From Bacteroidia bacterium (GTDB lineage Bacteria; Bacteroidota; Bacteroidia; Flavobacteriales; Flavobacteriaceae), in contig JAUIBH010000019.1 of NCBI GenBank assembly GCA_030427985.1, forward strand, positions 1 to 49,099: a stretch of DNA of 49,099 nucleotides, written 5' to 3'. The notes under the pieces were generated by a model that saw nothing but the letters and a program-made list of their open reading frames with translations, had not been told where the DNA came from and did not search any database. The stretch's first letter is position 1. Each line of letters opens with the position of its first letter. Positions 15,442 to 49,099 of the stretch are shown here, piece after piece. The position numbers and the translations under genes were made by a program.

Positions 15442-15447
15442 CGAACC

Positions 15448-15929: not shown

Positions 15930-15935
15930 ACAAAT

Positions 15936-15971: not shown

Positions 15972-16046
15972 TGTACGGAAAGGGTTGACCCATTTCAAAA
16001 CTTTAACAATTTTGACTATCTTAATACGGCTTAATTCAACCTCAAC

Positions 16047-22091: not shown

Positions 22092-23123
22092 ATGAATATA
22101 TACGGAATTGACCTGTCCAAGGAAAAGTTTGATGTGAGCTTTCTTGATAAGGGTAAAGAGAGAAAAAAGATTGTACCCAATAACTTCAAGGGCATCTGCA
22201 AGTTTTTAAAGCTATTGACCGATGACAGTCTATTAGTAGCCGAACATACTGGAAGCTACGGTGACTTGCTGGTACACCTCTGTTATCAGTACAATATTAA
22301 AATCGCATTGGTTTCTGGCTACAACATTAAACATAGCCTGGGGCTACAGAGAGGTAAAAGTGATTCAAAAGACGCCTACCGAATTCGAAAATACGGGGTA
22401 AGATTCTATGAAGAATTACATCTTGCAGTACCAAAGCATGAATCTGTGAAAGAGCTTAAAGAACTATATGTCCTTCGTGAACAGTTATCGAAAAGTAGAA
22501 AGTCTCTCCTTTTAGGGCATGAAGCAAGAAAACAGAGTCCATCTAAGAGTATTGCAGCCTACCAAAGCTACAAAAGAGCAATCTCAAATTTGGAAGAAGA
22601 AATTGGAACTATTGAAATCGAAATAGAAAAGGTTATCCAAAACAATAAAGAACTAAAAGACAATTATCAGTTGATTACAAGTATAACTGGGATCGGACCG
22701 GTAATAGCCAACAACCTTATCATTAAAACAGAAAATTTTAAACGTATTTCCACGGCTAAAAAAGCTGCCGCATTTGCCGGTGTGTGCCCATACCCCAATT
22801 CATCGGGAAAAATGTCTTGGAAGGCAAAAACAAGCCATATAGCCGACAAGAAACTGAAATCACTACTATTCCTTGCAGCAAAAACGGCTGTAACACACAA
22901 TAAGGAATATAGTTTATATGCTAAACGAAAAAAGCTTGAAGGAAAACCTTATTATTTAATAATGAACAATGTATCCAATAAAATGCTTAGAACGGTTTAT
23001 GGCATTATACAAAGTAGAAAACCATATGACCTGAAACACATTTGTAATGACCCGAGAAAAAAGGTTTGTCCCAAGGTTTCCGATTTATCTCAGCAAGGTG
23101 AATCAAGTAATGGGTTGAACTAA
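22092..23123 (+). CDS. IS110-family transposase
   Basis: The 343-residue protein has an N-terminal RuvC-like DEDD domain with YGIDLSKEKFDV (Asp6), LVAEHTGSYG and KSDSKDAYRI. A C-terminal Transposase_20 domain follows, with SITGIGPVIANNL, AAFAGVCPYPNSSGKM and KLKSLLFLAA. The Ser in the SSG motif is the likely catalytic residue of that domain. Length and residues are intact, so it may be active. IS110 transposases work with a bridge RNA that picks target and donor sites. The element sits in the region upstream of ParB copy 1. Confidence 0.95.
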   Translation: MNIYGIDLSKEKFDVSFLDKGKERKKIVPNNFKGICKFLKLLTDDSLLVAEHTGSYGDLLVHLCYQYNIKIALVSGYNIKHSLGLQRGKSDSKDAYRIRKYGVRFYEELHLAVPKHESVKELKELYVLREQLSKSRKSLLLGHEARKQSPSKSIAAYQSYKRAISNLEEEIGTIEIEIEKVIQNNKELKDNYQLITSITGIGPVIANNLIIKTENFKRISTAKKAAAFAGVCPYPNSSGKMSWKAKTSHIADKKLKSLLFLAAKTAVTHNKEYSLYAKRKKLEGKPYYLIMNNVSNKMLRTVYGIIQSRKPYDLKHICNDPRKKVCPKVSDLSQQGESSNGLN

Positions 23124-23276
23124 TATATCTTGGAGTTTAAAATCAAGAATCATTGTTGTTCCATAAAAGGTAATTTAACCAGACTACTAAAGAAGACCAA
23201 AAACTGGAATAGGATATCGTTCGTTTGGATTCCATCCTTAAGTAAAACGGTCGTCGAAAAGAAGCAGTATCTATTT

Positions 23277-23317
23277 ATTTAAGTATTTGCTTAAATTATT
23301 ATATACATGTAACTTTG
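23277..23317 (+). promoter_or_regulatory. arsR promoter with inverted-repeat operator
   Basis: The -7 element TAACTTTG (23310-23317) and a -33 TTTG (23286-23289) are 20 bp apart, a good Bacteroidota promoter. The -33 element lies inside the inverted repeat ATTTAAG-N6-CTTAAAT (23277-23296). Such a site is what an ArsR-type dimer would bind to block its own promoter. Confidence 0.7.
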
Positions 23318-23332
23318 TCGGAAAGAATACAT

Positions 23333-23704
23333 ATGAAATTTGAAACCAGTTGTATCAGGGCAGAAGCCGACCATGTTCAAATTCTTCGCTGTAAAGAAGA
23401 TTTGAACGCTGTATCAACTTCCATTGAAGCCATAAGTAAAATTATGGCACTGGCCGGCAATGAAGTTAGGTTTAAGATATTGTTTTTGTTACAGCGGGAA
23501 ACTGAATTATGTCCTTGCGACTTTGCGGATATTCTGGAAATGAGCGTTCCCGCTATTTCCCAGCACTTACGTAAGATGAGGGATGTAAATGTCATTTCCA
23601 CCCGTAGAGAAGGTCAAACTATCTTTTATAGTATTTCAAAGGAAAACGAAGCTTTTTTAACTTCTATTTTGAGTAACATAGAATCCGAAAGGAAAATTGC
23701 ATAA
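23333..23704 (+). CDS. ArsR/SmtB-family metal-responsive repressor
   Basis: The start at ATG 23333 is preferred because an upstream TTG start would lie within the -7 promoter element. The 123-residue protein has the ArsR winged helix, with NEVRFKILFLLQ, the recognition region MSVPAISQHLRKM and the wing TRREGQTIFYSI. The alpha-3 metal motif ELCPCD keeps the two Cys of the ELCxCD site of As/Hg-sensing ArsR proteins; additional Cys near residues 5 and 20 may complete it. Release of the repressor by a soft metal would turn on the MerTP gene one base downstream of its stop codon. Confidence 0.88.
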   Translation: MKFETSCIRAEADHVQILRCKEDLNAVSTSIEAISKIMALAGNEVRFKILFLLQRETELCPCDFADILEMSVPAISQHLRKMRDVNVISTRREGQTIFYSISKENEAFLTSILSNIESERKIA

Positions 23705-23705
23705 T

Positions 23706-24308
23706 ATGAAAAAAACATTGACATCCAATCGAACTGCTTTTGCTGGATTGTTTTCAGCCATTGTAGCCTCACTGTGTTGTATTACCCCTGTCCTGGCGTT
23801 GCTGTCCGGCACGACTGGAATCGCTTCTACCTTTTCTTGGGTAGAACCTTATAGACCTATTTTGATAGGTGCGACTGTTTTGATTCTTGGTTTTGCTTGG
23901 TATCAAAAATTAAAACCGCGTCCACAGGATATTGATTGCGCTTGTGATGATGATAAACCTAAATTTATTCAAACCAAAAAGTTCTTGTTTTTGGTTACTA
24001 TTTTTGCTGGTATAATGTTGGCATTCCCTTACTATTCACATATGTATTATTCCAACTCCAATGTTGAAAAGCAAGTCGTATTTGTATCTGAAAGTAACGT
24101 AAGTGAATTGACCTATTCCATTCAAGGGATGACCTGTGCTGGTTGCGAAGCCCATATTGAAAACGAGGTAAATAAACTAGAGGGTGTTTTAGGGGTAGAT
24201 GCAAATTATGAGACTTCCAAAGCTTTTGTAAAGTTTGACAGAAGTAAGGTAAGTGCTAATGAAATAGTATCTGCTATTGGAAAAACGGGATATAAAATCA
24301 TAGAATAA
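23706..24308 (+). CDS. merTP: MerT-MerP fusion, mercuric/soft-metal transport protein
   Basis: The 200-residue protein joins a MerT-like membrane part to a MerP-like domain. The first membrane helix has the vicinal Cys pair in SLCCITPVLALLSG that takes Hg(II) in MerT. Two more helices follow, with a CACDD loop between helices two and three. After about residue 130 an HMA domain has GMTCAGCEAH and ends in ANEIVSAIGKTGYKI. In known mer operons this moves Hg(II) inward to the reductase MerA, but no merA lies in this window. The gene overlaps the next by one base (TAATG). Confidence 0.85.
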   Translation: MKKTLTSNRTAFAGLFSAIVASLCCITPVLALLSGTTGIASTFSWVEPYRPILIGATVLILGFAWYQKLKPRPQDIDCACDDDKPKFIQTKKFLFLVTIFAGIMLAFPYYSHMYYSNSNVEKQVVFVSESNVSELTYSIQGMTCAGCEAHIENEVNKLEGVLGVDANYETSKAFVKFDRSKVSANEIVSAIGKTGYKIIE

Positions 24309-24517
24309 TGGAAGCTATTTTAGAATCAACGATCAAGTGTCCAAACTGTGGACATAGGAAAGAGGAAGAAATGCCAACGACAGCTTGCCAATTCTTTTAT
24401 GATTGTGAAAATTGCAAAGAAGTATTACGTCCAAAAGAGGGCGATTGTTGTGTATTCTGCTCCTATGGCACCGTTGCCTGTCCATCCGTTCAGGAAAGCT
24501 CTCTATGTTGCGAGTAA
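24308..24517 (+). CDS. GDCCVxC-domain small Cys-rich protein
   Basis: The 69-residue protein has ten Cys. It begins with a CPNCGH knuckle, has CENCKE in the middle, and then GDCCVFCSYGTVACP, the hallmark of the GDCCVxC (seleno)protein family found in mer-type operons. All positions are Cys codons; no selenocysteine TGA is seen. It ends in CCE. The protein is probably cytoplasmic and may receive metal from MerTP. It overlaps the MerTP stop by one base. Confidence 0.85.
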   Translation: MEAILESTIKCPNCGHRKEEEMPTTACQFFYDCENCKEVLRPKEGDCCVFCSYGTVACPSVQESSLCCE

Positions 24518-24530
24518 ATTTGAAAAATTA

Positions 24531-24545
24531 TTTGGGGACCACCCT
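24531..24545 (+). promoter_or_regulatory. Candidate CsoR operator in front of csoR
   Basis: TTTGGGGACCACCCT here differs by one base from the site at 25007-25021 before the thioredoxin-like gene. The G-rich/C-rich composition is like known CsoR/RcnR operators. It lies 36 bp before the csoR start. Confidence 0.45.
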
Positions 24546-24581
24546 GGGAGCCTCATTACTTTGTCACAAAATTCAAAATCA

Positions 24582-24944
24582 ATGATACCACGAGATTTAA
24601 GCAAGGACATAAAAACGAGGTTGCAAAGTATCAATGGGCAAATAAGCGGTCTCGTTAAAATGCTGGATGAGGATACGGACCCGGAGAAGATACTGATACA
24701 GTTCAAGGCAGCCCAGAAGGGACTGGAGAAGGCCTACTTCCTGTTGCTTGACGAAACCTATCGAAAGGCACTTGCCATCAAGATTTCAGAAACCGTGGAA
24801 GCCTGCCCTGGGAATTGTGGCAATGAAGACCGTATTGAATTTATCAGGAAGCAGTTCCCTAATCTGGAATTGGACAGTCTTACGGACAAAATGAAGGAAA
24901 TAGCCTCCCTTAAGGCCAAACTGGAAGACTATAGGGACAAATAA
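24582..24944 (+). CDS. CsoR/FrmR/RcnR-family (DUF156) repressor
   Basis: I place the start at ATG 24582. The longer frame from 24348 lies inside the GDCCVxC gene in another frame and is spurious. The 120-residue protein is the DUF156 four-helix type: LQSINGQISGLVKMLDED, the segment ILIQFKAAQKGLEKAYFLLLDE, and KALAIKISETVEACPGNCG. The usual W-x-C-H-C ligand pattern is not obvious; a CPGNC pair at the end of helix 2 is. Ligand specificity may thus differ from copper CsoR. Two near-identical 15-bp sites flank the gene. Confidence 0.88.
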   Translation: MIPRDLSKDIKTRLQSINGQISGLVKMLDEDTDPEKILIQFKAAQKGLEKAYFLLLDETYRKALAIKISETVEACPGNCGNEDRIEFIRKQFPNLELDSLTDKMKEIASLKAKLEDYRDK

Positions 24945-25006
24945 ACTTTACCAAAAAGCAATACGATCAATGGCCCAAAAAAAAGGGACATTTTTTTTTA
25001 ATATTG

Positions 25007-25021
25007 TTTGGAGACCACCCT
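25007..25021 (+). promoter_or_regulatory. Candidate CsoR operator in front of the metal operon
   Basis: TTTGGAGACCACCCT matches the site before csoR at 14 of 15 positions and lies 70 bp before the thioredoxin-like gene. A -7-like element TATTGTTTG (25002-25010) overlaps its left end. Confidence 0.45.
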
Positions 25022-25091
25022 ACCCCATTTGATTCGTTGTTTGGATCCGATGACAATGGAAAGAAGAAATAAACAATTCAAAAACAGAAAG

Positions 25092-25364
25092 ATGAAACGT
25101 CAAGTAGAAGTTTTTACCGCCAATTGTCCGATCTGTGACCCTGTCGTCGAAATGGTTCGGGAACTGGCTTGTGATGAATGTGAAGTAACCACATACGATT
25201 TGGTTGAGCAATTCAGCGATAAGACCTGTCTCGCTAAGATGAATGAATACGGAGTACATAAAATACCGGCGGTTGCGGTCAACGGAAAATTGTTGGATTG
25301 TTGTAAGGACTCGTCCATTACCAAAGAAAGGTTGACGGAGGCGGGCATTGGACAGATCTCATAA
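25092..25364 (+). CDS. Thioredoxin/glutaredoxin-like protein
   Basis: The start MKRQVEVFTANCPICDPVV at 25092 puts the CPIC redox motif near the N-terminus as in glutaredoxin-like thioredoxins of metal operons. The protein has 90 residues, the cis-Pro in HKIPAVAVNG, and additional Cys (ACDEC, a TCLA Cys and DCCKD) able to bind thiophilic metals. It lacks a signal peptide and should be cytoplasmic. It is the first gene of the putative CsoR-regulated operon and is separated from the next by 13 bp. Confidence 0.8.
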   Translation: MKRQVEVFTANCPICDPVVEMVRELACDECEVTTYDLVEQFSDKTCLAKMNEYGVHKIPAVAVNGKLLDCCKDSSITKERLTEAGIGQIS

Positions 25365-25377
25365 AAACCAGCTAAAA

Positions 25378-26247
25378 ATGATTGTCAAAAAAATCACGAA
25401 GTTACCGGCAAGAATCAACTATCTGGTATTGATATTCCAATTGGCTTTCACGGGGGTAGCGGTGGCTCAAGGCCACGGCCCCTTGTATGGTCTACAGACC
25501 CCGACCCTTGCCAAGGGCGGAGTGGATCTGAATGTGGCTGGTATGACCCTAAGCACGGAAGATGAAACCTTGTATATGTTGCGTTATCTATTTTCCTATG
25601 GAATTACCGAAGATTTGCAGGTCAATTTGACCACACCGACAATGATCGGGCGTTTGGATAACGCACCGAGGACCCGGGGCAACAGCAATATGCCCGCAAA
25701 CGGAGATATCGAGGCTTCTCTTTGGTACCGTTTTTTTTCCAATGCCTTTGGTGTGGGCAAGCGCTTTGAGTCAACCGCTGTTTTTGGTGTTTCCACACCT
25801 ACCGATGATGTACGCGGACAGGTCAACGTCGGCCAATCCGTACACGCCGCCATTTCAACTGGCTATGCTTCACGGACCTGGTATGGATGGCTCGGGGGAG
25901 GATACCACTATTATTTCGGGAAAAACGGCGAACAATTGGGGGATTTGCCCTATGCCTCTGCCGTTGTGGGGTATCGCCCCAATATTTTTATGGGTGATTA
26001 TCCAAAACCCGATTGGCGCATTTTCATTGAATCGTTGGCCGAGTTTCCCGGTGAGGCCATCTATGAGGGAAACCTGAACGATTCTGGCACGAGAAGCACG
26101 AAGGTTCTGGTCGGCCCATCTTTTTTGGGACTGTACGGTGCATGGGGCATATCCTTTGGCGCTATGTTCCCGGCGGTACAGAACCTGACTCCAGGAGCTG
26201 TAAGGGAAAAATACCGAGTAGCGATAAATCTGAGCTATTGGTTATAG
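25378..26247 (+). CDS. Outer-membrane beta-barrel transporter-like protein
   Basis: The 289-residue protein starts with a signal peptide ending in AVAQGHG. The rest is rich in alternating aromatic/polar strands (SLWYRFFSNAF, WYGWLGGGYHYYFG) and ends with an outer-membrane-type terminal strand YRVAINLSYWL. It resembles the 'transporter' barrels of the phenol meta-pathway family seen in metal operons. It would sit in the outer membrane and let a small solute or metal complex pass. It is cotranscribed with the thioredoxin-like and HMA genes by spacing. Confidence 0.75.
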   Translation: MIVKKITKLPARINYLVLIFQLAFTGVAVAQGHGPLYGLQTPTLAKGGVDLNVAGMTLSTEDETLYMLRYLFSYGITEDLQVNLTTPTMIGRLDNAPRTRGNSNMPANGDIEASLWYRFFSNAFGVGKRFESTAVFGVSTPTDDVRGQVNVGQSVHAAISTGYASRTWYGWLGGGYHYYFGKNGEQLGDLPYASAVVGYRPNIFMGDYPKPDWRIFIESLAEFPGEAIYEGNLNDSGTRSTKVLVGPSFLGLYGAWGISFGAMFPAVQNLTPGAVREKYRVAINLSYWL

Positions 26248-26275
26248 ATAGCGATAAATTTTTAAAAAGTTGAGT

Positions 26276-26764
26276 ATGATGAAAAATAGTGTATTGGTGA
26301 TAATAATGGTCTTGTTGGTTGTGGGCACTCTAAATGCCCAGATAACCTACGTGGACCAGGAAGTGTACGGGATGGATTGTGCCCCTTGTGCCTATGGCCT
26401 GGAACGGGGACTGAAAAAGATGGACGGTCTTCAGAAGGTCCGTGTCAGTCTCAATGATGGAAGGGCCTATCTTGACCTGGCCGCTGAGAACGAACTCACT
26501 TTGGGGGCCATTCAAGAGGAAGTGAAAAAGAACGGGTTTTCCGCTAAAAAAGCAGCGGTGACCGTTTCGGGCAAACTAAGTAAAGAAAATGGCCAATGGT
26601 TGGTAGCCACCCCCCGGGAACAATTTTTGGTGTCGCAGGCCACTTCTACAGAATATCTTGAAAAAATGACGGAGGGCAACGTCACGGTGAGTGGCACGGT
26701 GGACGATGTGGAAGATGACAATCTTCCAAGCCAATGGATACTTACGATATCAAAAATGGAATGA
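26276..26764 (+). CDS. Periplasmic HMA-domain metal-binding protein
   Basis: I choose ATG 26276; the TTG at 26270 is unlikely. The 162-residue protein has a signal peptide ending in LNAQ and a MerP-like HMA domain with YGMDCAPCAYGLERGL near 30-45. The C-terminal region of about 70 residues is beta-rich and begins TVSGKLSKENGQWL. It repeats the pattern as NVTVSGTVDD and may be an OB fold. The protein would carry metal in the periplasm between the outer-membrane barrel and the MerT-like membrane protein, with whose gene it overlaps by four bases. Confidence 0.8.
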   Translation: MMKNSVLVIIMVLLVVGTLNAQITYVDQEVYGMDCAPCAYGLERGLKKMDGLQKVRVSLNDGRAYLDLAAENELTLGAIQEEVKKNGFSAKKAAVTVSGKLSKENGQWLVATPREQFLVSQATSTEYLEKMTEGNVTVSGTVDDVEDDNLPSQWILTISKME

Positions 26765-27111
26765 ATTCAATGAGGACCACTTTAAAATTGATGTTGAGCA
26801 CAAGCTTGCTTACCTCTTATCTACCCCTGATGTGCTGTCTTGTGCCCGCATTTTTATCGTTCGGGGCAGGATTGGGAGTTTTGGCCGGAAACTTTGAATG
26901 GCTGCATCCCGCACAATCCTATCTGAGCACCTTTTCGGTAGTTGTTCTTGGGATTGCCCACTACAAAAATTTCAAAGGTTCAAGAAAGTGCAACAAAGGG
27001 AAACCGTGCGAAAATACCGTTGGCAAATGCAGTATCAATTCATGGTCTTTATGGACGGTTACCTCGCTGGTCCTGATTTTTATCGTCTTAAACTACTTAT
27101 ATGAATTCTAA
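26761..27111 (+). CDS. MerT-like inner-membrane transport protein
   Basis: The 116-residue protein has three membrane helices. The first contains the Cys pair in LMCCLVPAFLSFGAG, as in MerT. The loop before the last helix has KCNKGKPCENTVGKC with three Cys. It has no fused HMA domain, unlike the MerTP at 23706; the separate HMA protein encoded just upstream may do that job. The start overlaps the upstream stop (ATGA) and the end overlaps the next gene by 11 bp, so the three are tightly coupled. Confidence 0.75.
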   Translation: MNSMRTTLKLMLSTSLLTSYLPLMCCLVPAFLSFGAGLGVLAGNFEWLHPAQSYLSTFSVVVLGIAHYKNFKGSRKCNKGKPCENTVGKCSINSWSLWTVTSLVLIFIVLNYLYEF

Positions 27112-27922
27112 ACTAGTTAGTGTCCTCTCAATTGTTTTCTTGGTTCTTTTCATATCCGGTTGTGAGAGGCACAAAAAACAGTGGCAGCTTGAACGAAAGA
27201 TTACGCTTCCCGAAGAATCCCGTCCCTTGGCGTTGGCAAAGGATAGGGATGTCATCTGGTTTACGGACCCCGATTATTTCCGGCTGTATAAAATAGACCT
27301 GAACGGAAAAGTATTGGATTCCATCACGGGCATCCAACGACCGATGAACATCCATTTTGAAAAGGGTACACTTTATATTCCAGAGTTTTTGACCGATTCC
27401 ATTTGGAAATATAAAAATAGCAGGTTAAGCCCCATGAAAATAAATAAGACTCCACAGGCACCGGCAGGTGTTTCCGTATATGGGGACACCATTTTGGTCG
27501 CTGATTTTTATAACCATCGTATTATTGTGGAGACCCCTAATAAAAGTTTTACCATCGGTAAACAGGGACATAAGGATGGGAAACTATACTATCCTATAGA
27601 TGTAAAGATGAAAAACGGCAAGGTTTACGTGGCTGATGCCTATAACCACAGGATCCAGATTTTTGATTTTGAAGGCAACCATATTGCCACCATCGGACAA
27701 AATGAGAAAATAAACGTGGCTTCAGGAATTGCTTTAAACGTCAATGAATTGGCCATCACCGACCAAGAAAATAGTCGGGTATTAATTTTTGACCATCAGG
27801 GCCAACTGCTTCAGATATTGACAGAAAACATCGTATATCCAACTGATGTTCTGTTCGACAGGAACAAACTTTACATCACAAATTTTAAGGAAAACTCAAT
27901 TTTAATCTGGTCTTTAAGATAG
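27101..27922 (+). CDS. NHL-repeat lipoprotein (beta-propeller)
   Basis: The 273-residue protein has a lipoprotein signal with lipobox LFISGC near 20. NHL-type repeats follow, for example ILVADFYNHRIIVETP, VYVADAYNHRIQIFD and LAITDQENSRVLIFD, giving about five to six blades. It should be anchored in the periplasm or at the surface. It shares no Cys-rich metal motif. It ends the CsoR-controlled operon, overlapping the MerT-like gene by 11 bp. The role in metal handling is unknown; a scaffold for the barrel-HMA-MerT chain is one idea. Confidence 0.8.
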   Translation: MNSKLVSVLSIVFLVLFISGCERHKKQWQLERKITLPEESRPLALAKDRDVIWFTDPDYFRLYKIDLNGKVLDSITGIQRPMNIHFEKGTLYIPEFLTDSIWKYKNSRLSPMKINKTPQAPAGVSVYGDTILVADFYNHRIIVETPNKSFTIGKQGHKDGKLYYPIDVKMKNGKVYVADAYNHRIQIFDFEGNHIATIGQNEKINVASGIALNVNELAITDQENSRVLIFDHQGQLLQILTENIVYPTDVLFDRNKLYITNFKENSILIWSLR

Positions 27923-28030
27923 TAATGTATCACTGGTTCCTTAAAAAAATACTTTACGTAACAATAGCATCTTTTTATGAAAACATTTGGTCTATTCTTT
28001 CTAAAAAATTTGGTTTTTAATAGAGTATAT

Positions 28031-28100
28031 AAAAAGTGACTTTAGGGAACGGCTTTATGCCGTCCCTTGCCCGAGAAATATTTGCCGGGTTTATCTTTTG
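28031..28100. repeat. Continuation of ParB upstream repeat, copy 1 (right part)
   Basis: This segment matches 42529-42600 closely, including AAAAAGTGACTT, TTTATGCCGTCCCTTG and CCGAGAAATATTT. It contains a conserved stem-loop (ACGGC-TTTAT-GCCGT). It shows where the DNA left of 21876 used to continue. Confidence 0.7.
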
Positions 28101-28751: not shown

Positions 28752-31355
28752 ATGGAAGAAATCTCACAACCAACAGAAGAATTAAAAACGCTTGAAACTG
28801 AAGTTAAAGCTTTTGCAAATGCTCAACCTTATTGGGCAAGATACCTTTGTTCTGAAATTTTAGCAGGTAATGAAATTACAGATACTATAATTGATTCAGC
28901 TTATTCTTATTTGCTCGAAAAAATAGGTCTTAAAGAAGAAACTGATAAGCCTGAGCTTTCTATTTCATACAACCCAAATGCCTCTGATGATTTTAAAGAA
29001 AACCTGTCTTTTGACTCGCTTGCAAACGTTGAAGGAGTTAATGCCCTTACCGAAAATCAAACTATAGAGTTAACATCAAATTTGACTATCATATATGGAA
29101 CAAATGGAGCTGGGAAATCTGGTTATGTTCGCCTTTTAAAAAACGTTTTTTATTCCAAAGACAAGGCAAACATTCTTCCTAACATCAACATTGATTCCGG
29201 ACACAAACCAATAGCAGCAACCTTTAATTTTTCTTCAGAGGGAACTAACATTCCTTTGAAATATCCTGATAACATCGGAAATGGCATTTTTAATCAGTTT
29301 GCAATTTTTGACGGAGATATTGGGAAAAAACACCTTAGCTTAAGAAATGATTTTAGCTTCCGCCCTGCTGGATTGCAATTGTTTAATGAATTTAATGCTG
29401 CATTAGAGAAATTAAACGGCAAGCTAAATATTGAAATTCAATCTAAAAGTACTGCCAATCCCTTTGCAGATGATGACATTTTTCAAGCAGAATCTGAAAT
29501 CAAAACATTGTTAATTCAGCTTTCGCATAATTCTAAACTTGAAGATTTAAATGCTCATTTACCTTATAATGAAGAGGAAAAAGCAAAGAAAGTTCAACTA
29601 GACAAAGAATATGATGATTTAAAAATTGCTTTAGCTCAAAAAGACAAAGCATCGAAAGAGTTGCAAACTATAAAAGCCCAATTAGCAGCTCGAAAACAGA
29701 CTTTAGTTAACACGAACACTTGGTTCGCTCAAGACCAACTAAATAGTGTAATTAAAGCAATCACTAATTGTAAAACCAAAGAGGATACAGCACAAAAAGA
29801 AGGCGTAGAAAAATTCAAAACCGATAAAATTGAAAATATTGGTTCTACAGAATGGAAACAATTCATTGAAGCGGCCGCAAAATTTGCTTCTACTCAAAAC
29901 GAAGGTGAATACCCTTCACTTGGTGACAATTGCTTACTGTGTCAGCAAGCAATCAATGATGATGTTCCCAAAAGCTTAATTAGCAGCTATTGGGCTTACA
30001 TTAAAAGTGTTGCTGAACAAGAAGCAAAGACGGCCAAAGAAAAGCTTGCAAAGTTTAAAGCGGATTACGAAAAATTAAGTTTCAATCAATTTCCTGAAAC
30101 AGACACTTTAGCCGTTTGGTTAAAGGACAGGTACGAAACGGTTTTAGCCAATTTAAAAGATGAACTAAAGAAACAGGAAACATTAAGACAAACACTTGTA
30201 TCAAACATCAATGACAAAAAGGATATTTTACAAGTTGAAGTACAATTAGATTTAAGTGCATTAGATGCCATAAGCAAAACGGTAGATAAAGAAATTAAAG
30301 CGTTTGAAGAAGATGAGCAAAGTAAAAAACTTGGCGAACTGTTAAAAAAGAAAACTTATTTGGCTCATAAAGAAAAACTGGAAGCTCGATACCCAGATAT
30401 TGAAACCCTACACAAAAACTTGATTTGGGTAAACAAAGCCAACCAGTTTAATAAAAGGTCAGTAAAGAAATCATCTACAGATACTGAAAAGAGACTTTCC
30501 GAAGAATATTTCAACAACGATTATATCAATGAATTTAATGACGAATGCGATAAATTAAATGGAAAGTTTGGAATTGAAATAGATGCAAGAAGTTCAGATG
30601 CACAATCCAACCGCCAACTTTTTCTTAAAGGCGAAGACCCTTCTGCAATTTTAAGTGAGGGAGAACAAAAAGTAATTGCTCTGGCTGACTTTATTGCAGA
30701 AACCAACATTACCACAATTAACAGAGGAGTCATTCTTGACGACCCTGTTAACTCGCTTGATGAAGAACGGAAGAGTTTAATTGCGAATAGGCTCGTTTCA
30801 ATTTCAGAAACTAAACAAGTAATTATATTTACTCATGATTTAGTTTTTGTCTCCTGTCTTCTTAATTATGCTCAAGACAAATCTTTAACTCACGAGTGCC
30901 ATTGGATTGAAAATAGAAACGGTAACCCGGGTCAAGTTTGGTTAAGAAACTCACCTACGTATGAAAAAATTTATCGTAATGCTGAGCCAGTAAAGAAGCT
31001 ATACTCCGAAGCGAATAAAACCGAGTGCCCTCCTGAACAGAGAGAGTTCCTAGTTAAAAGTGGATTCACAGCATTACGTACCTGCTATGAGGTTTTAGTA
31101 ATTAATGACTTGTTTAAAAATGTTGTTCAGCGATACAATGAACGTGTAAGCGTTGATAGTCTTTCCAGTGTCTATTTTGACGAAGAATTAACAAACGAAC
31201 TTCTTGACAGTTTTGCTCAATGTTGCAGATACATGGAAGGCCATACGCATAGTGATAAATATGCTTACATGAAACCAGAACCTTCAAACCTTAATGAAGA
31301 AATTCAAAGATATGAAGCGTTAAGAAGTAAAATTCGAAAATTTAAAAAGAAATAA
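28752..31355 (+). CDS. RloC/PrrC-like AAA_13 ATPase with zinc hook
   Basis: The 867-residue protein has an SMC/Rad50-like ABC ATPase split by a long coiled coil. Walker A GTNGAGKS is at 116-123, the signature LSEGEQ at 634-639, Walker B VILDDPVNSLD at 660-670 and the H-loop FTHD near 694. The coiled coil bears a zinc-hook CLLC at 394-397, as in RloC. After the ATPase a helical C-terminal domain has Arg776-x3-Glu780 (RTCYE) and His831/His833 (GHTHSD). The anticodon nucleases PrrC and RloC have a similar Arg-x3-Glu...His triad. Such proteins cut tRNA during phage infection. Assignment of the nuclease part is tentative, the ATPase part firm. The gene is AT-rich compared with its neighbours. Confidence 0.8.
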   Translation: MEEISQPTEELKTLETEVKAFANAQPYWARYLCSEILAGNEITDTIIDSAYSYLLEKIGLKEETDKPELSISYNPNASDDFKENLSFDSLANVEGVNALTENQTIELTSNLTIIYGTNGAGKSGYVRLLKNVFYSKDKANILPNINIDSGHKPIAATFNFSSEGTNIPLKYPDNIGNGIFNQFAIFDGDIGKKHLSLRNDFSFRPAGLQLFNEFNAALEKLNGKLNIEIQSKSTANPFADDDIFQAESEIKTLLIQLSHNSKLEDLNAHLPYNEEEKAKKVQLDKEYDDLKIALAQKDKASKELQTIKAQLAARKQTLVNTNTWFAQDQLNSVIKAITNCKTKEDTAQKEGVEKFKTDKIENIGSTEWKQFIEAAAKFASTQNEGEYPSLGDNCLLCQQAINDDVPKSLISSYWAYIKSVAEQEAKTAKEKLAKFKADYEKLSFNQFPETDTLAVWLKDRYETVLANLKDELKKQETLRQTLVSNINDKKDILQVEVQLDLSALDAISKTVDKEIKAFEEDEQSKKLGELLKKKTYLAHKEKLEARYPDIETLHKNLIWVNKANQFNKRSVKKSSTDTEKRLSEEYFNNDYINEFNDECDKLNGKFGIEIDARSSDAQSNRQLFLKGEDPSAILSEGEQKVIALADFIAETNITTINRGVILDDPVNSLDEERKSLIANRLVSISETKQVIIFTHDLVFVSCLLNYAQDKSLTHECHWIENRNGNPGQVWLRNSPTYEKIYRNAEPVKKLYSEANKTECPPEQREFLVKSGFTALRTCYEVLVINDLFKNVVQRYNERVSVDSLSSVYFDEELTNELLDSFAQCCRYMEGHTHSDKYAYMKPEPSNLNEEIQRYEALRSKIRKFKKK

Positions 31356-31363
31356 AGCCAGCA

Positions 31364-31420
31364 TACAACAACACCTAAACGCAATGCCCTACGGGACACT
31401 GCCATAGCCAAAATGTTGTA
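31364..31420. repeat. Cassette-like inverted repeat between genes
   Basis: Outer arms TACAACA (31364-31370) and TGTTGTA (31414-31420) are perfect inverted repeats. Between them is a small hairpin CCC-TAC-GGG (31387-31395). The element fills the whole gap between the ATPase gene and the next gene. Similar short palindromic spacers recur in this island (33,420 and 34,491). Confidence 0.5.
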
Positions 31421-31442
31421 CCTCAAGCTAAAAAAGAACCTG

Positions 31443-42959: not shown

Positions 42960-44924
42960 CTATTCCCATTTCATTTTCTGTAACCGTATTGCATTCAATA
43001 TTGCCAAAAGCGCCACGCCCACATCGGCAAACACCGCTTCCCACATTGTAGCCAAACCACCCGCGCCCAGAATAAGGACGATTAGCTTCACCCCAAATGC
43101 CAAGCCAATGTTCTGCCATACGATCCTACGGGTGGAGAGCCCGATTTTTACCGCTCGTGCCATCTTACTCGGGTGGTCGGTCTGGATGATGACATCAGCA
43201 GTTTCAATGGCCACATCACTGCCCAAACCCCCCATGGCAATACCCACATCGCTGGCGGCCAGAACGGGTGCATCATTGATGCCATCCCCCATAAAGGCCA
43301 CTTTGGTGCCGGATTGTTTTTTAAGTTCTTCCACTTTGCTGAGCTTATCCTCGGGCAATAAGCCGCCCTTGGCCCAATCCATGTTCAGTTCTTTCGCAAC
43401 TTGTTGCGTTATGGAATCTTTATCACCAGAGAGCATGATGATTTTCGAAATCCCGGCATCCCTGATTTGTTTGATGGCTTGATGGGCATCTTCCTTGAGT
43501 TCATCCGCAATGGTCACATAGCCTGCAAATTTTCCGTCAATGGCAACCATGACAATGGATTCCACAATGGCATCGGTTTCCAAAGGGACCTCTATGTGGT
43601 TTGCGGTCATCAAGGCTTTGTTGCCCACCAGTACCGTTTTCCCGTTGACCGTTCCTTTTAACCCCTTTCCGGCAACTTCCGATACATCGGTTGCCCCTAA
43701 ACCCGTACCCTCAGCCTTGTATTCCAAAACCGCCTTGGCTATGGGATGGGTGGATTGTTCTTCCATGGCCATCAAATAATTCATAAACTCGGCCTCCTCA
43801 AATTGGATGGACCTGATGTCCTTGATTTTAAAAACCCCTTTGGTAACGGTCCCTGTTTTGTCCATTACGACCGTGTTCACTTTGGTCATTGCATCCAAAA
43901 AAGATGCACCCTTGAAAAGGATCCCGTTTCGGGATGCCGCACCCAGACCACCAAAATAACCGAGCGGAATGGAAATGACCAAGGCACAGGGACAGGAAAC
44001 CACAAGGAATATCAAGGCTCGGTAAAGCCAATCCCTAAATACGTAACCATCCACAAAAAAGTAGGGAAGGAACGTTAATCCGATAGCAAGAAAGACCACA
44101 ATGGGCGTATAGATCCTTGCAAATTTTCTAATGAAGAGTTCGGTCTTTGATTTCCGGGCTGTCGCGTTTTGCACCATATCCAAGATCCGGGCAATGGAAC
44201 TGTCCTTGAATTCCTTGGTCGTTTCTACTTCGACAACACCGTCGAGGTTAATACTTCCGGCAAAGACCTTTTCATCCTTGTGTATGGTATCGGGTTTACT
44301 TTCGCCAGTGATGGCAGCCGTATTGAGGGAAGCTCTTTCGGATAACAGAATACCGTCCAAGGGAATTTTCTCGCCCACACGCACCTGAATTTTTTCGCCA
44401 ATTTCGACAGTTTCGGGATTTACGGCAACAAAGCCCCCGTTGCGAAATACCAGAGCTTCGTCCGGTCGTGCATCCAAAAGGGCCTTGATATTCCCCTTTG
44501 CCCTGTTTACAGCTGCACTTTGAAACAGTTCGCCCACGGCATAGAATAGCATTACGGCTACTCCTTCAGGATATTCGCCTATGGCAAAGGCCCCCAAAGT
44601 GGCAATGGACATCAGGAAAAATTCAGTAAAGAAATCACCCTGTTTGATACTGTTCCAACCCTCCTTGATGACAGGAAAACCAACAGGTAAATAAGCAAGG
44701 GTGTACCATGCTACCCTTATCCAACCCTTGAAAAAAGGCAAAGCATCAAAATAGTCCACAGCAATGCCGATAATGAGCATTACAAAGCTGAAAATGGCCG
44801 GTAAATAGATCTTGAATTTAGATACACCTTCAGGACCGCTATGGTTATGGCCACTTTCGTGTCCGTTTTCGCCCTGGTGTTCTTTTGAGCCCAGGTCACG
44901 TAGTTTTACTTTTTTCTTTTTCAT
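42960..44924 (-). CDS. zntA: P1B-type Zn/Cd/Pb/Co-exporting ATPase
   Basis: I place the start at ATG 44924 (MKKKKVKLRDLG), which leaves a 44-bp gap to the upstream Fur gene; an earlier ATG would overlap it. The 654-residue protein has the P1B-2 layout: TGES in the actuator domain, the membrane CPC metal site in SCPCALVISIPLG, the phosphorylation motif DKTGTVTKG and the HP motif QSTHPIAKA. A His-rich tail (HQGENGHESGHNHSG) replaces the N-terminal HMA domain. It pumps divalent metals out of the cytoplasm. The preceding Fur-family gene likely controls it. Confidence 0.93.
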   Translation of the reverse strand: MKKKKVKLRDLGSKEHQGENGHESGHNHSGPEGVSKFKIYLPAIFSFVMLIIGIAVDYFDALPFFKGWIRVAWYTLAYLPVGFPVIKEGWNSIKQGDFFTEFFLMSIATLGAFAIGEYPEGVAVMLFYAVGELFQSAAVNRAKGNIKALLDARPDEALVFRNGGFVAVNPETVEIGEKIQVRVGEKIPLDGILLSERASLNTAAITGESKPDTIHKDEKVFAGSINLDGVVEVETTKEFKDSSIARILDMVQNATARKSKTELFIRKFARIYTPIVVFLAIGLTFLPYFFVDGYVFRDWLYRALIFLVVSCPCALVISIPLGYFGGLGAASRNGILFKGASFLDAMTKVNTVVMDKTGTVTKGVFKIKDIRSIQFEEAEFMNYLMAMEEQSTHPIAKAVLEYKAEGTGLGATDVSEVAGKGLKGTVNGKTVLVGNKALMTANHIEVPLETDAIVESIVMVAIDGKFAGYVTIADELKEDAHQAIKQIRDAGISKIIMLSGDKDSITQQVAKELNMDWAKGGLLPEDKLSKVEELKKQSGTKVAFMGDGINDAPVLAASDVGIAMGGLGSDVAIETADVIIQTDHPSKMARAVKIGLSTRRIVWQNIGLAFGVKLIVLILGAGGLATMWEAVFADVGVALLAILNAIRLQKMKWE

Positions 44925-44968
44925 AATGATCGAAAGGTCGTTATATGTTTGGTGCAACGGAAGTGCAT

Positions 44969-45385
44969 TTATTGTCCGCTGCACTTTTCGCAGATTCCCT
45001 TAATGACCAAATTGGCATTTTCGGCCACATACCCATCGGGCAGATTGATATGGGGGATCTTATGCTCCGTGAGACACACCGTTTCATCACAGTTACCGCA
45101 ATGAAAGTGCAGGTGCAGATCTTGTTCCATTTCACAATTGCAACCTGGCTCGCACAGGGCATATTTTGAAATATTGGTGCCATCATCTATTTGGTGCACA
45201 ATGCGTTTTTCCTCAAAGGTTTTCAGGGTCCGGTACAAGGTGGTTCTGTCAGCTTTCGAGAAAGCGTTCTCTATATCGGTCAGGGCAATGGCCACTTCCT
45301 TTTCAGCCATATATTTATAGATCAAGATACGCATCGCCGTGGGGCGGACACCTTTGTTTTCCAATGTTTTTTCAATTTCTGTCAT
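44969..45385 (-). CDS. Fur-family metal-responsive regulator (Zur-like)
   Basis: The 138-residue protein has the Fur winged helix (RPTAMRILIYKYM, ADRTTLYRTLKTFEEKRIVHQI) and the metal sites. The His-rich HLHFHCGNC includes one CxxC, and GICEKC near the end is the second CxxC of a structural zinc site. Located between an RND efflux operon and a Zn/Cd ATPase, it more likely responds to zinc or another divalent metal than to iron. Gaps of 15 bp to the CzcB gene on one side and 44 bp to the ATPase gene on the other suggest one transcript with both. Confidence 0.9.
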   Translation of the reverse strand: MTEIEKTLENKGVRPTAMRILIYKYMAEKEVAIALTDIENAFSKADRTTLYRTLKTFEEKRIVHQIDDGTNISKYALCEPGCNCEMEQDLHLHFHCGNCDETVCLTEHKIPHINLPDGYVAENANLVIKGICEKCSGQ

Positions 45386-45400
45386 CGTACTGTTATTTTA

Positions 45401-46618
45401 TCAATGGCTATGGCCCGCATCCCCTTTCTTCATTTGGGCCATCAAATAGTAGGCATTGTTGTATGCAAATGTAGTGTTTGGTCCAACGGAGTCTACAAAA
45501 CTGATGGCGACCCAATCCCCCTCATGGGGGCCTGTGGTAATTTCTACAGGCTTGAAACTCCAGTCATTGCCTTCCCGATCCGCCCTGAAAATATATTTTT
45601 TTCCTTCGTTCGAACTGATTGCACTTTCAGGGACCGCAATGGTTTCGAAATTTTGGATTTCAATACGTCCTTCAACATACATCCCGGGGATCAGCTGCCC
45701 TTCCTTGTTCTCGATTTCAGCATGGACGTGTATCGCTTTGGGATTTTGCTCGAAAGTTTTCCCAACGGAATAAATTTTCGCGGTAAGTTCCTTCCCGGGA
45801 ATGGATTGAACATTAAAGGATACTTGCTGCCCTACATTTACTTTGTACACATCCTTTTCAAACACCATTAAATCGGCATGGACGTGATGGGTATCAACGA
45901 TTTCAAATAGGTCGGTCTGCGGTTCTACGTACTGCCCGGTCTTGATCGCTACTTTTTGGACAAACCCCTCAATGGGACTTCGCAATGGAACCTGTTGATA
46001 AATAGTCCCGTTTCTCACCCCGGATGCGGCAATGTTCAATTGTAGCAACTGTGCTTCCAATCCCTTTGCCAGGCTTTGTGATGCCCGGTATTCCGCTTCG
46101 GCCTTTTGAAAATTCGCCCCACTGCCCACCCCCGCATCATACAAGGTTTTTTGTCTTTCAAATTCCTTCATAAGAAACTGGCTGTTACTGTAGGCGTTCA
46201 GGTAATCGGTCTGTTTCTGGATGATGTTGGGGTGGGACAGATAGGCAACCGTTTGTCCTTTGCTTACTTTGTCGCCTTCAATGACCTCTATGGACACCAC
46301 ATTGGCACCCACGACCGTAGTAATGGTCGCTTCGTTCTGTGGTGGGACCTCCAGTTGCCCATTGGCCTCCACATACTGCTTCATGACACGTTGGGCAAGT
46401 GTATCAATTTTCATGTTAAGGTTGCGGTATTGCGCTTCCGTTAGCATGGCTTCCTTGACTTCACCTTCTTCCTTGACTTCACCTTCTTCCTGAATTTCGC
46501 CCACTTCAGGATTTTTTTGCATTGCCTCCTCGGTATCGGCTCTGGAATTCCCACAGGAAGTAAGTGCCAAGAGCATCGTCACGAGCCCAATAAGGCTATA
46601 TTTAAAAAGATTGTTCAT
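45401..46618 (-). CDS. czcB: CzcB-like RND periplasmic adaptor lipoprotein
   Basis: Start at ATG 46618 gives a lipoprotein signal (MNNLFKYSLIGLVTMLLALTSCG) four bases after the CzcA-fusion stop. The 405-residue protein has the HlyD/CusB order: an acidic repeat linker, a barrel-sandwich half (ANVVSIEVIEGDKVSKGQTV), a helical hairpin (QKTDYLNAYSNSQFLMKEFE), the second lipoyl half (RSPIEGFVQKVAIKTGQYV) and beta-barrel domains. It links the inner-membrane pump to the outer-membrane channel. The linker near residues 36-56 is encoded by a tandem DNA repeat (46451-46486). Confidence 0.9.
   Translation of the reverse strand: MNNLFKYSLIGLVTMLLALTSCGNSRADTEEAMQKNPEVGEIQEEGEVKEEGEVKEAMLTEAQYRNLNMKIDTLAQRVMKQYVEANGQLEVPPQNEATITTVVGANVVSIEVIEGDKVSKGQTVAYLSHPNIIQKQTDYLNAYSNSQFLMKEFERQKTLYDAGVGSGANFQKAEAEYRASQSLAKGLEAQLLQLNIAASGVRNGTIYQQVPLRSPIEGFVQKVAIKTGQYVEPQTDLFEIVDTHHVHADLMVFEKDVYKVNVGQQVSFNVQSIPGKELTAKIYSVGKTFEQNPKAIHVHAEIENKEGQLIPGMYVEGRIEIQNFETIAVPESAISSNEGKKYIFRADREGNDWSFKPVEITTGPHEGDWVAISFVDSVGPNTTFAYNNAYYLMAQMKKGDAGHSH
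46451..46486. repeat. Tandem 18-bp repeat within czcB
   Basis: TTCCTTGACTTCACCTTC occurs twice in direct succession and a third, diverged partial unit follows. It encodes the acidic repeats EGEVKE in the adaptor linker. The number of units could vary by slippage without shifting the frame. Confidence 0.85.
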
Positions 46619-46622
46619 TTGT

Positions 46623-49099
46623 CTATTGTTTAAAATATTGTAGTTCAAATACTGATTTTAGGTAGTTGTCAAGGGCGTCAAGGGCGTCCATTTCCGTGTT
46701 TATGGCATCCCGAACAATTTGTGTGAACGCTGTATAGTCCACCGCACCTTCCCTGTAGGCCAACAATGCACCCTTGCGCTGCTCTTGGGCAAGTGGCAAG
46801 GCCTTTTCCCTATAAAATTGCCACGATGCCCTCCATTTCAGATAGGCTTGCACGGCCTGCCGATATTCGGATTGCAGCTGGCGTTTTGCATAATCCGCAT
46901 TGGTCTTTGCGATTTCACTTTCAATTTTAGCGGCCTTGGCCCGACTGCGCTCGGTACCCGAAAACAAAGGAACCGAAATACCGGCTTGATAGGTGTAGAA
47001 CCCGCTATCGCCATTGATCTGTTGCAGTCCGCCCTGAAGGTTGAACTTAGGGAGTAGGTCGGCACGTGCCGCATCATAGGTGGCCCCGGCCTCCTCGATG
47101 CGCCTTTGTGAAAGTTCCAGCTCTGGATGTTTTCCCAAATCCCCATCCAATTCCAAAACCGTTACCGCGCTTTCATTAAGTTTTGCTGGCACTGAATAGA
47201 AGATATCCGAAACCAACCATAGATTCAGCTTTTGCAGGGCGATGGCATAATCGCTTTCCGCCTGTTGCAGTTTATTGCTGATTTGCAAGGCCTGATTTGT
47301 AGCCGATGAATATTCCAATCTGGAAATGGCTTCCACCTTGAAGTTGAGCTCTATTGCTTTTTTAAACTGTGAATAAATGGAATCCAGTTCATGGTACAGT
47401 TCAAATTTCTGTCGTTGTCGATAGGCTTCCGACCACGCTTTTTTCACTTCCTGTTCTACTTGCAGTCCGGAAAGGTCAAGAGCTGTCTCGGCCAAAGCGA
47501 TGCGTTGTTTCTGCAAACGCTTTTTTGCACTGATGCCCAAAAGGTCGATATTCTGTTGTCCAACCCCTACCAAGGTATAAATTCCTTTTCCATCCACAAT
47601 TTCTTCGCCACCTGTGAAGACTTGGGTATTGCCAAGGTCGTAGGCCGTTCCTTTAAGGGCGGTTTGTTTTTGGACTTCCCATTGTTTTGTTTTCAACAAC
47701 GGATAGTTTTTCTTGGAAATTTCCACGGCATCTTCCAATGAAATAGTAGGCAGAGAATCTTGCGGTTGAACTTCTTGTGCTTTTGCGCAAACGGTAGTGA
47801 ACAAAAGACAGATCATGACCGTAGGGGTAATCCATTTTGGGTTGGGCCTCTTCCGTTCCGAACGTCCCTCGACCCATTGGTAAAAGATGGGAAGGATAAA
47901 GAGCGTCAAGAGGGTCGAAGTTAGCAAGCCGCCAATGACAACGGTGGCCAAAGGGCGTTGTACTTCTGCCCCTGCCGATGCGGAAATGGCCATGGGCAGG
48001 AAACCTAAAATATCGGTAAAGGCCGTCAGCATAATGGGACGTATCCTTCGCTTGGTGCCTTCTATAATTCTATCTTTAAGATCGGTTACCCCTTCTTCTT
48101 TCAGTTCATTCAGACCACTGATCATGACCAGCCCGTTCAGAACGGCCACACCAAACAACACGATAAAGCCGACGCCTGCGGAAATACTGAAGGGCATATC
48201 CCTTAACCACAGGGCGAATACACCACCAATTGTGGCCATTGGGATGGCGAGATAGATCATCAAGGTCTGTGGAAAGGACTTTAGCGCAAAATAGATCAAT
48301 ATGAAAATCAGGAACAAGGCAATAGGGACAACAGTTTGCAATCTATTGCTGGCGCGTTCCAGATTTTCGAAAGCTCCACCATACCGAATGTAATATCCTG
48401 CGGGCAGGTCGAACTGGGCGTCCAATTTTGCCTGGATATCCTCTACCACCGATTTTACATCACGGTCGCGAATATTGATACCTACATAGGTCCGTCTATT
48501 TGTATTGTCACGGCTTATCTGCATCGGACCGGGTTCATAACTTACATCGGCAATTTCCCGTAATGGGATTTGGGAGCCATTGGGCAGGTTGATGAACAGG
48601 TTCTGGATGTCCTCGATGCTTTGCCTGTTTTCCTTTTGAAGCCTTACCACTAGGTCAAACCTTTTTTCGCCCTCGAAGATCACGCCAGCCTTTCCACCCG
48701 CAAAGGCTGCCTGTACCACTTTATTGAGTTGGTTGATCTTAAGACCGTACTGTGCCAATTTATCGCGGTTGTAGTCGATGGTGATTTGGGGCAGGCCGTC
48801 CGTGGCCTCTACTTTCATATCGGCCACACCGGGAACGGTGGCAATGATTTCCCCCATTTCCTCGGCCTTGCTTGCCAATACGTCAAGGTCTTCCCCGAAC
48901 AATTTAATGGCCACATCCTCACGAACCCCCGTAAGCAGTTCGTTGAAGCGCATTTCGATAGGCTGGGTAAATTCAAAGTTCACGCCGGGAACGATACTGA
49001 TGGCCTCTTTAATTTTTTCCACCAGTTCATCCTTGCTATCCGCAGATGTCCATTCATCCGTTGGTTTGAGGATGACGAATACATCGGCGATATCCATGG
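46623..49099 (-). CDS. czcA: CzcA-type RND metal pump fused to outer-membrane channel (3' part)
   Basis: The gene runs off the right end; 825 codons are visible. Residues up to about 410 are the C-terminal half of a heavy-metal RND pump, with membrane helices such as PIALFLIFILIYFALKSF and FGVAVLNGLVMISGLNE. A segment near 423-441 (PTVMICLLFTTVCAKAQ) then looks like an internal signal peptide. The remaining ~385 residues are an outer-membrane efflux protein (TolC/CzcC type) with two repeat halves. Such fusions are known in Bacteroidota metal pumps. The adaptor gene starts four bases downstream. Metal specificity is not shown. Confidence 0.92.
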   Translation of the reverse strand, partial: MDIADVFVILKPTDEWTSADSKDELVEKIKEAISIVPGVNFEFTQPIEMRFNELLTGVREDVAIKLFGEDLDVLASKAEEMGEIIATVPGVADMKVEATDGLPQITIDYNRDKLAQYGLKINQLNKVVQAAFAGGKAGVIFEGEKRFDLVVRLQKENRQSIEDIQNLFINLPNGSQIPLREIADVSYEPGPMQISRDNTNRRTYVGINIRDRDVKSVVEDIQAKLDAQFDLPAGYYIRYGGAFENLERASNRLQTVVPIALFLIFILIYFALKSFPQTLMIYLAIPMATIGGVFALWLRDMPFSISAGVGFIVLFGVAVLNGLVMISGLNELKEEGVTDLKDRIIEGTKRRIRPIMLTAFTDILGFLPMAISASAGAEVQRPLATVVIGGLLTSTLLTLFILPIFYQWVEGRSERKRPNPKWITPTVMICLLFTTVCAKAQEVQPQDSLPTISLEDAVEISKKNYPLLKTKQWEVQKQTALKGTAYDLGNTQVFTGGEEIVDGKGIYTLVGVGQQNIDLLGISAKKRLQKQRIALAETALDLSGLQVEQEVKKAWSEAYRQRQKFELYHELDSIYSQFKKAIELNFKVEAISRLEYSSATNQALQISNKLQQAESDYAIALQKLNLWLVSDIFYSVPAKLNESAVTVLELDGDLGKHPELELSQRRIEEAGATYDAARADLLPKFNLQGGLQQINGDSGFYTYQAGISVPLFSGTERSRAKAAKIESEIAKTNADYAKRQLQSEYRQAVQAYLKWRASWQFYREKALPLAQEQRKGALLAYREGAVDYTAFTQIVRDAINTEMDALDALDNYLKSVFELQYFKQ

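Follow-up and report, generated by a model that had tools for sequence, protein, structure and literature searches.

The nine genes at positions 23333-27922 of contig JAUIBH010000019.1 (assembly GCA_030427985.1, Bacteroidia bacterium; the whole stretch of 49,099 nucleotides is referred to as the window) may form a mer-type locus of Bacteroidota for handling Hg(II), and possibly also Ag(I), in which the mercuric reductase is optional. We give this reading about an even chance, and Hg(II) is probably the main substrate. In textbook mercury resistance, Hg(II) is imported by MerT/P and then reduced by MerA. Here, genes for the importer occur in genomes in which no reductase is recognisable, and they nearly always touch one small Cys-rich gene. 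The reductase-less condition of the window is real, but it is one state of a variable locus.

Gene content and order

All nine genes are intact open frames on the + strand and form two units. In the first unit, an ArsR/SmtB-type metalloregulator (23333..23704; HTH_5, 49.3 bits, cut-off 22; HTH_metalloreg, 76.9 bits, cut-off 55) is followed by a MerTP fusion of the inner-membrane Hg(II) importer family with a C-terminal HMA domain (23706..24308; 273.4 bits, cut-off 180) and by a GDCCVxC protein (NF041374) of 69 residues with 11 Cys and a C-terminal Cys-Cys tail (24308..24517; 106.4 bits, cut-off 40). The second unit encodes a CsoR-family regulator (PF02583; 24582..24944; 50.2 bits, cut-off 22.8), a small thioredoxin/glutaredoxin-like protein with CPIC and LDCC motifs (25092..25364; Thioredoxin_3, 33.5 bits, cut-off 24.8), a 12-stranded outer-membrane barrel assigned to the COG4313 fold from a structure model (25378..26247), an HMA protein with a GMDCAPC motif and a C-terminal beta domain that is presumably periplasmic, given its N-terminal signal-like stretch (26276..26764; HMA, 36.9 bits, cut-off 24.8), a MerT-like inner-membrane protein with CC in its first helix and a Cys-rich loop (26761..27111; PF02411, 27.7 bits, under the cut-off of 32.9) and an NHL-repeat lipoprotein (27101..27922; NHL repeats, 68.2 bits, cut-off 20; lipobox judged by eye). 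The MerTP stop and the GDCCVxC start overlap at 24308, the HMA and MerT-like genes at 26761-26764 and the MerT-like and NHL genes at 27101-27111. The CC, CxxC and HMA motifs are all present, and the family scores confirm that the genes are real and that an earlier note, made from the sequence alone, had read almost all of them and their tight overlaps correctly; the three-compartment layout that it proposed is likewise supported.

Among the features of a mer operon, the merT/merP transport genes (as MerTP_fusion) and a MerR or ArsR regulator (as ArsR/SmtB) are present. A mercuric reductase, either canonical or of the GbsMerA type described below, was found neither in the operon nor elsewhere in the window's genome, a metagenome-assembled genome that is 88.9% complete.

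Conservation in other genomes

Relatives were collected by scanning one genome per species with an alignment of the barrel, which gave 70 loci, some of them near-copies. Among the 53 loci with enough flanking sequence, an HMA gene follows the barrel gene in 51 and a MerT-like gene is nearby in 47, with both found in 46. The barrel-HMA-MerT core also occurs in records titled Acidobacteria, Gammaproteobacteria, Gemmatimonadetes and Elusimicrobia, while L047 and L049 are labelled as other phyla yet have a Bacteroidota-like gene content (MerTP tree). In the 35 Bacteroidota-type loci with at least 5 kilobases (kb) upstream, the CsoR-like gene is found in all 35, the ArsR-MerTP pair in 31 (L050 is not counted because its MerT-like match is weak) and GDCCVxC in 30. 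The NHL gene, found in only 21 of the 53 full-flank loci, is the least constant part of the neighbourhood. The conserved neighbourhood for which the earlier note suggested a search therefore exists, and the order of the CsoR operon is kept in other genomes. The operon is accessory, given that the barrel was matched at E<=0.001 in only three of 395 genomes sampled from the Bacteroidota phylum, one of which is the window's own and another a broken, weak match. No plasmid copy of the barrel was matched at E<=1e-5.

Distribution of the mercuric reductase

A GbsMerA-type reductase is encoded in the gene cluster of 20 of the 35 Bacteroidota-type loci and a canonical MerA in three, with one locus holding both and 13 holding neither; in these relatives, the reductase gene adjoins MerTP or GDCCVxC. 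GbsMerA is the mercuric reductase of Gelidibacter salicanalis PAMC21136 (PDB 8k40/8k41). According to the accessible part of its description, it uses Hg(II) to oxidise NADPH, reaches half that rate with Ag(I) and shows trivial or undetectable activity with Cu; it raises the Hg resistance of E. coli, and has neither the N-terminal domain nor the C-terminal Cys-Cys found in other MerAs (PMC10587081). The GbsMerA-type proteins are flavin adenine dinucleotide-dependent oxidoreductases that share the motif GGTCALRGCDPKK and are about 448 residues long, and the copy of L020 matches 8k40 over its full length with 791 bits and 345 of 448 residues identical (77%). This identity, together with the published Hg(II) activity of GbsMerA, ties the locus to Hg(II).

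A reductase encoded elsewhere was sought in 13 genomes (those of L016 and L042 are not among them; L020 and L032 come from one genome), including that of the window (G000) and that of Flagellimonas marinaquae (G395), which has the same cluster. With the MerA profile, only G397 and G406 score over the cut-off of 454, with none in G000 or G395, and no relative of GbsMerA was found in G000 or G395 at E<=1e-60. The two strongest MerA matches of G000 (377.5 and 258 bits) were rejected as lipoamide dehydrogenases, since they reach 585.8 and 476.2 bits with the model of that enzyme (cut-off 408.8); the second match is truncated at its contig end. The two strongest of F. marinaquae (L090, L104) are likewise lipoamide dehydrogenases. 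GbsMerA-type matches at E<=1e-60 have identities of 100% in G402 and G400, 77% in G405 and 47% in G396, the remaining matches being at 34%. In G398, G401, G403 and G404, whose matches were not typed singly, MerA stays under the cut-off and relatives of GbsMerA do not exceed 34%; G399 has one further, unassigned oxidoreductase with 316 bits to MerA, which is under the cut-off. MerB gave no match in five genomes including G000, a result that is uninformative as the control genomes were also silent. Thus, the absence of a reductase claimed in the earlier note is borne out for the assembly of G000, in which no merA elsewhere was detected either. As a description of the CsoR operon in general the claim is not supported, since most relatives hold a mercuric reductase at the same locus.

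In a MerTP tree of 51 rows, 28 rows have no reductase, 20 have GbsMerA and three have MerA; part of the rows come from 30 GDCCVxC loci that were the best-scoring and not a random choice, with about 1.5 kb covered on each side. The tree needs eight changes of state, so that the reductase has been gained or lost repeatedly, and at least four changes for the reductase-less state are forced by well-supported branches. The locus of the window might instead be a mer operon in decay, deprived of its reductase and no longer protective. Neighbouring branches of the tree do carry GbsMerA, and MerT import without MerA is expected to harm, but all nine frames are intact, a reductase-less pair of MerTP and GDCCVxC recurs in 27 of the 395 sampled genomes, and the DNA of the CsoR operon agrees with its F. 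marinaquae counterpart at about 99-100% of positions, compared with 79% for shared DNA nearby, which points to a probably recent transfer of something presumably useful. We therefore regard decay as quite improbable.

The GDCCVxC protein

In the 395-genome sample, GDCCVxC was found in 101 genomes (E<=0.001; 100 over the cut-off), MerA in 39 (E<=1e-122; 36 over the cut-off) and the GbsMerA type in 10 (E<=1e-110). GDCCVxC shares a genome with MerA in 16 cases and with GbsMerA in seven, and 80 of the 101 genomes have neither reductase. In all seven genomes shared with the GbsMerA type (7 of the 10 GbsMerA genomes) the two genes are 23-260 bases apart, whereas in the 16 genomes shared with MerA they are on different contigs or at least 17 kb apart (adjacency 7/10 versus 0/39, Fisher p 1.4e-6). 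A MerTP match at E<=1e-20 was obtained in 28 of the 80 genomes that have GDCCVxC but neither reductase; it is over the cut-off in 27 and under it in G693. In 27 genomes, G693 included, MerTP lies 27-123 bases from GDCCVxC, which accounts for 30 of the 31 MerTP places. By eye, no conserved extra partner was seen downstream of the reductase-less unit in 30 loci. A Cys-Cys tail ends 49 of the 51 distinct GDCCVxC sequences and resembles the SCCAS end of the canonical MerA of L019, which has both NmerA and a Cys-Cys tail.

We propose that GDCCVxC is a cytoplasmic Hg carrier or sink, and that it may supply GbsMerA with a tail in trans and, where the reductase is absent, serve as a thiol sink. GbsMerA works without GDCCVxC in vitro and in E. 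coli, so that a partner of this kind is not essential; for this reason our estimate for a carrier or sink was lowered from slightly better than even to even. The earlier suggestion that GDCCVxC is the end point of the imported metal thus stands as a possibility. Alternatively, GDCCVxC could be a general redox or zinc-ribbon protein with no role as metal carrier, which is next to MerTP and GbsMerA as part of a stress regulon. Its similarity to zinc ribbons is weak and under the cut-offs, 12 of 30 GDCCVxC loci have no adjoining MerTP, and GbsMerA is active without it. The close spacing to MerTP in reductase-less genomes and the conserved Cys-Cys tail argue against this alternative, which we consider doubtful though possible. 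In the literature accessible to our search, GDCCVxC was found only as a family or selenoprotein entry, a review listing it, in line with the redox or zinc-ribbon alternative, as selenoprotein family GOS_B, hypothetical protein.

A class I S-adenosylmethionine-dependent methyltransferase gene lies between GbsMerA and GDCCVxC in several loci (e.g., L020:8290-8913) and adjoins GDCCVxC without MerTP in L128 and L131. Methylation is a possible end point at such loci.

Regulators and candidate operators

The best solved relative of the ArsR protein is CadC; both Cys of ELCxCD are kept, and a further Cys is found at residue 7. Upstream of its gene, an inverted repeat TTTAAG-N6-CTTAAA (23278-23295, +) is a candidate ArsR operator and TAACTTTG (23310-23317, +) a candidate Bacteroidota-type -7 box, matched to what we take to be the Bacteroidota consensus. 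Both were picked out by eye and have the same bases in L017.

The CsoR-like protein has the PF02583 fold. In alignment with 4adz, it lacks the Cys-His-Cys Cu(I) ligands of CsoR, and none of 26 distinct relatives has a Cys in the first 66 residues. All 26 have CPGxC at the C-terminus. The conserved element TTTGGRGACCACCCT occurs without mismatch twice in the window, upstream of the csoR-like gene (24531..24545, +) and of the thioredoxin gene (25007..25021, +). With up to three mismatches, five copies were observed and 3.2 expected, so that only the exact copies count. Of 28 distinct 150-base regions that precede the thioredoxin gene, 21 contain the 13-base core of the element with 0-1 mismatch, compared with 0.0009 per region in simulation. 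This count is inflated by shared descent, although the flanking bases differ between distant loci; upstream of csoR, only six of 29 regions contain the core. The TTTGGRGACCACCCT element may be the operator of the CsoR-like protein.

The barrel, HMA and MerT-like proteins

The barrel matched no Pfam family at E<=1, and its structure model has 12 strands and a mean predicted local distance difference test score of 82.5; it shares the 12-stranded fold of COG4313 without Pfam sequence membership. In 51 of 70 aligned barrels (43 of 62 distinct ones), Met is found at each of positions 56, 67 and 105, and four barrels are mixed. The remaining 15, which come without exception from records titled Acidobacteria or subgroups of it, have Met at none of the three. 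The Met residues suggest a possible soft-metal path through the barrel lumen. The conservation of H33 is biased, as HGP belonged to the search pattern, and no claim is made on this residue. The HMA fold is closest to Cu-binding domains, with MerP also among the matches. The MerT-like protein is under the PF02411 cut-off as noted above, and CC is found within the first 45 residues in 47 of 48 distinct relatives. We propose that barrel, HMA and MerT-like proteins form an inward route, for and against which the chances are evenly poised. To our knowledge, a dedicated outer-membrane route for mercury would be new.

The reverse direction was considered as well, in which the MerT-like and HMA proteins pass metal to the barrel as the exit, with the P-type ATPase and the resistance-nodulation-division (RND) pump of the same contig as partners. 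As proteins of the MerT family are importers, the conserved core includes neither an ATPase nor an RND gene and the proposed function of COG4313 channels is linked to uptake, export appears unlikely. A second question is whether the CsoR operon handles Cu(I) or Ag(I) rather than Hg(II) and was merely placed beside a mer operon within a metal island. Its membership in the CsoR family, the HMA fold, the Met residues of the barrel and the presence of a Csp-like protein at 15 of the 53 full-flank loci would agree with such a substrate. The absence of the Cu ligands of CsoR, the linkage to the ArsR-MerTP pair in 31 of 35 loci and the MerT-like gene within the operon itself speak against it, and we judge Cu(I) or Ag(I) as the substrate to be an improbable, if not negligible, alternative.

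The Csp-like protein near the barrel is Cys-rich and resembles Csp copper-storage proteins (e.g., L051:9579-9905; TIGR04401, 41 bits, under the cut-off of 100); it could be a metal store.

Proposed mechanism

In the mechanism that we infer, the COG4313-fold barrel would take Hg(II) across the outer membrane, the periplasmic HMA protein would pick it up, and the MerT-like protein and MerTP would carry it into the cytoplasm, where thiols of the Cys-rich GDCCVxC protein, kept reduced by the thioredoxin-like protein, would receive it. Where present, a GbsMerA-type reductase, which has no Cys-Cys tail of its own, would be aided by the GDCCVxC tail and make Hg(0). This last step is absent in the window, where GDCCVxC is proposed to act as a sink; the Cd-family P-type ATPase and the RND pump on the same contig may expel metal. 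More broadly and more tentatively, the system could be modular: GDCCVxC as a detached Cys-Cys tail would help to load GbsMerA in trans, GDCCVxC with MerTP alone would be a widespread reductase-less import-and-sequester unit, and the barrel, HMA and MerT-like proteins would be a dedicated mercury conduit in several phyla. Taken as a whole, this wider scheme is a minor possibility.

Several points weigh against the proposed mechanism. Import by MerT/MerP without MerA is reportedly linked to Hg hypersensitivity, so that import into a cell that has no more than a sink could do harm. Counted by genome, GDCCVxC and canonical MerA occur together slightly more often than expected (odds ratio 2.2, p 0.03), and in the L037 cluster a canonical MerA is about 2.7 kb from GDCCVxC, with GbsMerA between them. 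MerTP is missing from 52 of the 80 reductase-less GDCCVxC genomes, which limits the claim of a role with MerTP only, and GDCCVxC also adjoins a methyltransferase or a P-type ATPase, so that its role may be broader. The CsoR, HMA and Csp-like proteins fit copper as well, and three MerR-family regulators at non-Bacteroidota barrel loci (L067, L055, L081) score alike to MerR, ZntR and CadR, all under the cut-off. The channels of COG4313 are thought to import hydrophobic molecules, not ions, in the accessible part of their account (PMC4493636). Purified GbsMerA reduces Hg(II) fast and protects E. coli, with GDCCVxC not mentioned in the accessible part of the report, whose authors propose Tyr437 and Asp47 for metal transfer (PMC10587081). 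A tail in trans is thus not needed for activity, and among all these proteins experimental data exist for the GbsMerA enzyme only.

Mobility and contig surroundings

Both Muricauda sp. TY007 (L016) and F. marinaquae (L017) have DNA that matches positions 22999-28009 of the window. In a comparison by 250-base blocks, identity to both is 99-100% in most blocks between about 24500 and 28009 (lowest 96.5 and 98.4), whereas the ArsR unit is 77-94% identical, with its last block at up to 99.6 in L016, and the shared P-type ATPase DNA nearby is 79% identical. A recent exchange of the CsoR operon is thus probable, with the breakpoint lying between the two operons. The 3' end of an IS110-family transposase gene (22092..23123, +) is the left edge of the DNA that the window shares with L016 and L017, the latter of which seems to keep only a remnant of this gene.

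The window also encodes a Cd-family heavy-metal P-type ATPase (42960..44984, -), a relative of which is beside the module in L016 and L017, a CzcB-type RND adaptor (45401..46648, -) and the second half of a CzcA/CusA-type RND pump with an outer-membrane efflux domain, a gene that the contig end probably truncates (46623..49097, -). In L016 and L017, the ATPase gene is within about 1 kb of the module and the RND adaptor gene further on, and the module site corresponds to 42571-42617 of the window, where the window has no insert. The statement that no merA, merB or P-type ATPase is inside the insertion is therefore literally right for the interval, but incomplete for the contig.

A short palindromic repeat, GGCTTTATGCCGTCCCTTG, is found in two near-identical copies, to the right of the module (28051-28069) and at the module site of the relatives (42549-42567); a 16-base part of it also occurs in L016, L017 and L027-L032. 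Between the module and the ATPase/RND island, a large gene for 867 residues and the DUF4209 gene that follows it (28752-33206) may be a defence pair, and a DNA polymerase III alpha homologue with a neighbouring gene (35502-39697) is reminiscent of the imuB-dnaE2 mutagenesis cassette. An ImpB/MucB/SamB gene is at 15438-16460.

Comparison with known systems

The small thioredoxin-like protein and the organometal theme are shared with the SAO selenoprotein system, as far as its accessible description goes (PMC13188914). This assignment was rejected, as the SaoT model gave 11.2 bits (cut-off 65) and no ABC transporter gene is among the nine. Compared with the CsoR/RcnR repressors (4adz), the CsoR-like protein is alike in its PF02583 score and in the repeated element upstream of csoR and target genes, but has the conserved C-terminal CPGxC in place of the Cys-His-Cys ligands. 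The barrel differs from the COG4313 channel Pput2725 (4rl8; PMC4493636, accessible part) in having 11% identity in the aligned part, no Pfam match, Met at 56, 67 and 105 and a metal operon setting.

The canonical Bacteroidota mer operon with MerA, as described in the accessible text, also has ArsR-type regulation and MerTP (PMC3466566). Canonical MerA has NmerA and a Cys-Cys tail of its own, and in the 395-genome sample it has no GDCCVxC within 17 kb, but MerA, GbsMerA and GDCCVxC are together in L037. The Gelidibacter operon consists of co-directional genes for ArsR, MerT/P, GbsMerA and a downstream hypothetical protein (PMC10587081), which we infer to be GDCCVxC. The window's relatives have such an arrangement, in which GDCCVxC follows the reductase at some loci and precedes it at others, whereas the window lacks the reductase; the accessible part of that account makes no mention of the barrel/HMA/NHL operon. 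The earlier view of the CsoR operon as an undescribed system is therefore partly upheld: a search of titles and abstract openings found no account of the barrel operon, but the locus is a mer variant and the GbsMerA type is published. A partner protein with a Cys-Cys tail would be a second testable answer to the missing tail of GbsMerA, beside the proposal of Tyr437 and Asp47. How cells cope without MerA was raised, in the accessible part of one study, as a question for genomes with MerB but not MerA (PMC8261052), and coping with imported or released Hg(II) without MerA now becomes testable through a 69-residue protein. GbsMerA is already known from the literature. The most fitting place for the system is among the variants of mer, as one whose reductase is optional, whose Cys-rich partner is unexplained and whose outer-membrane module is unstudied.

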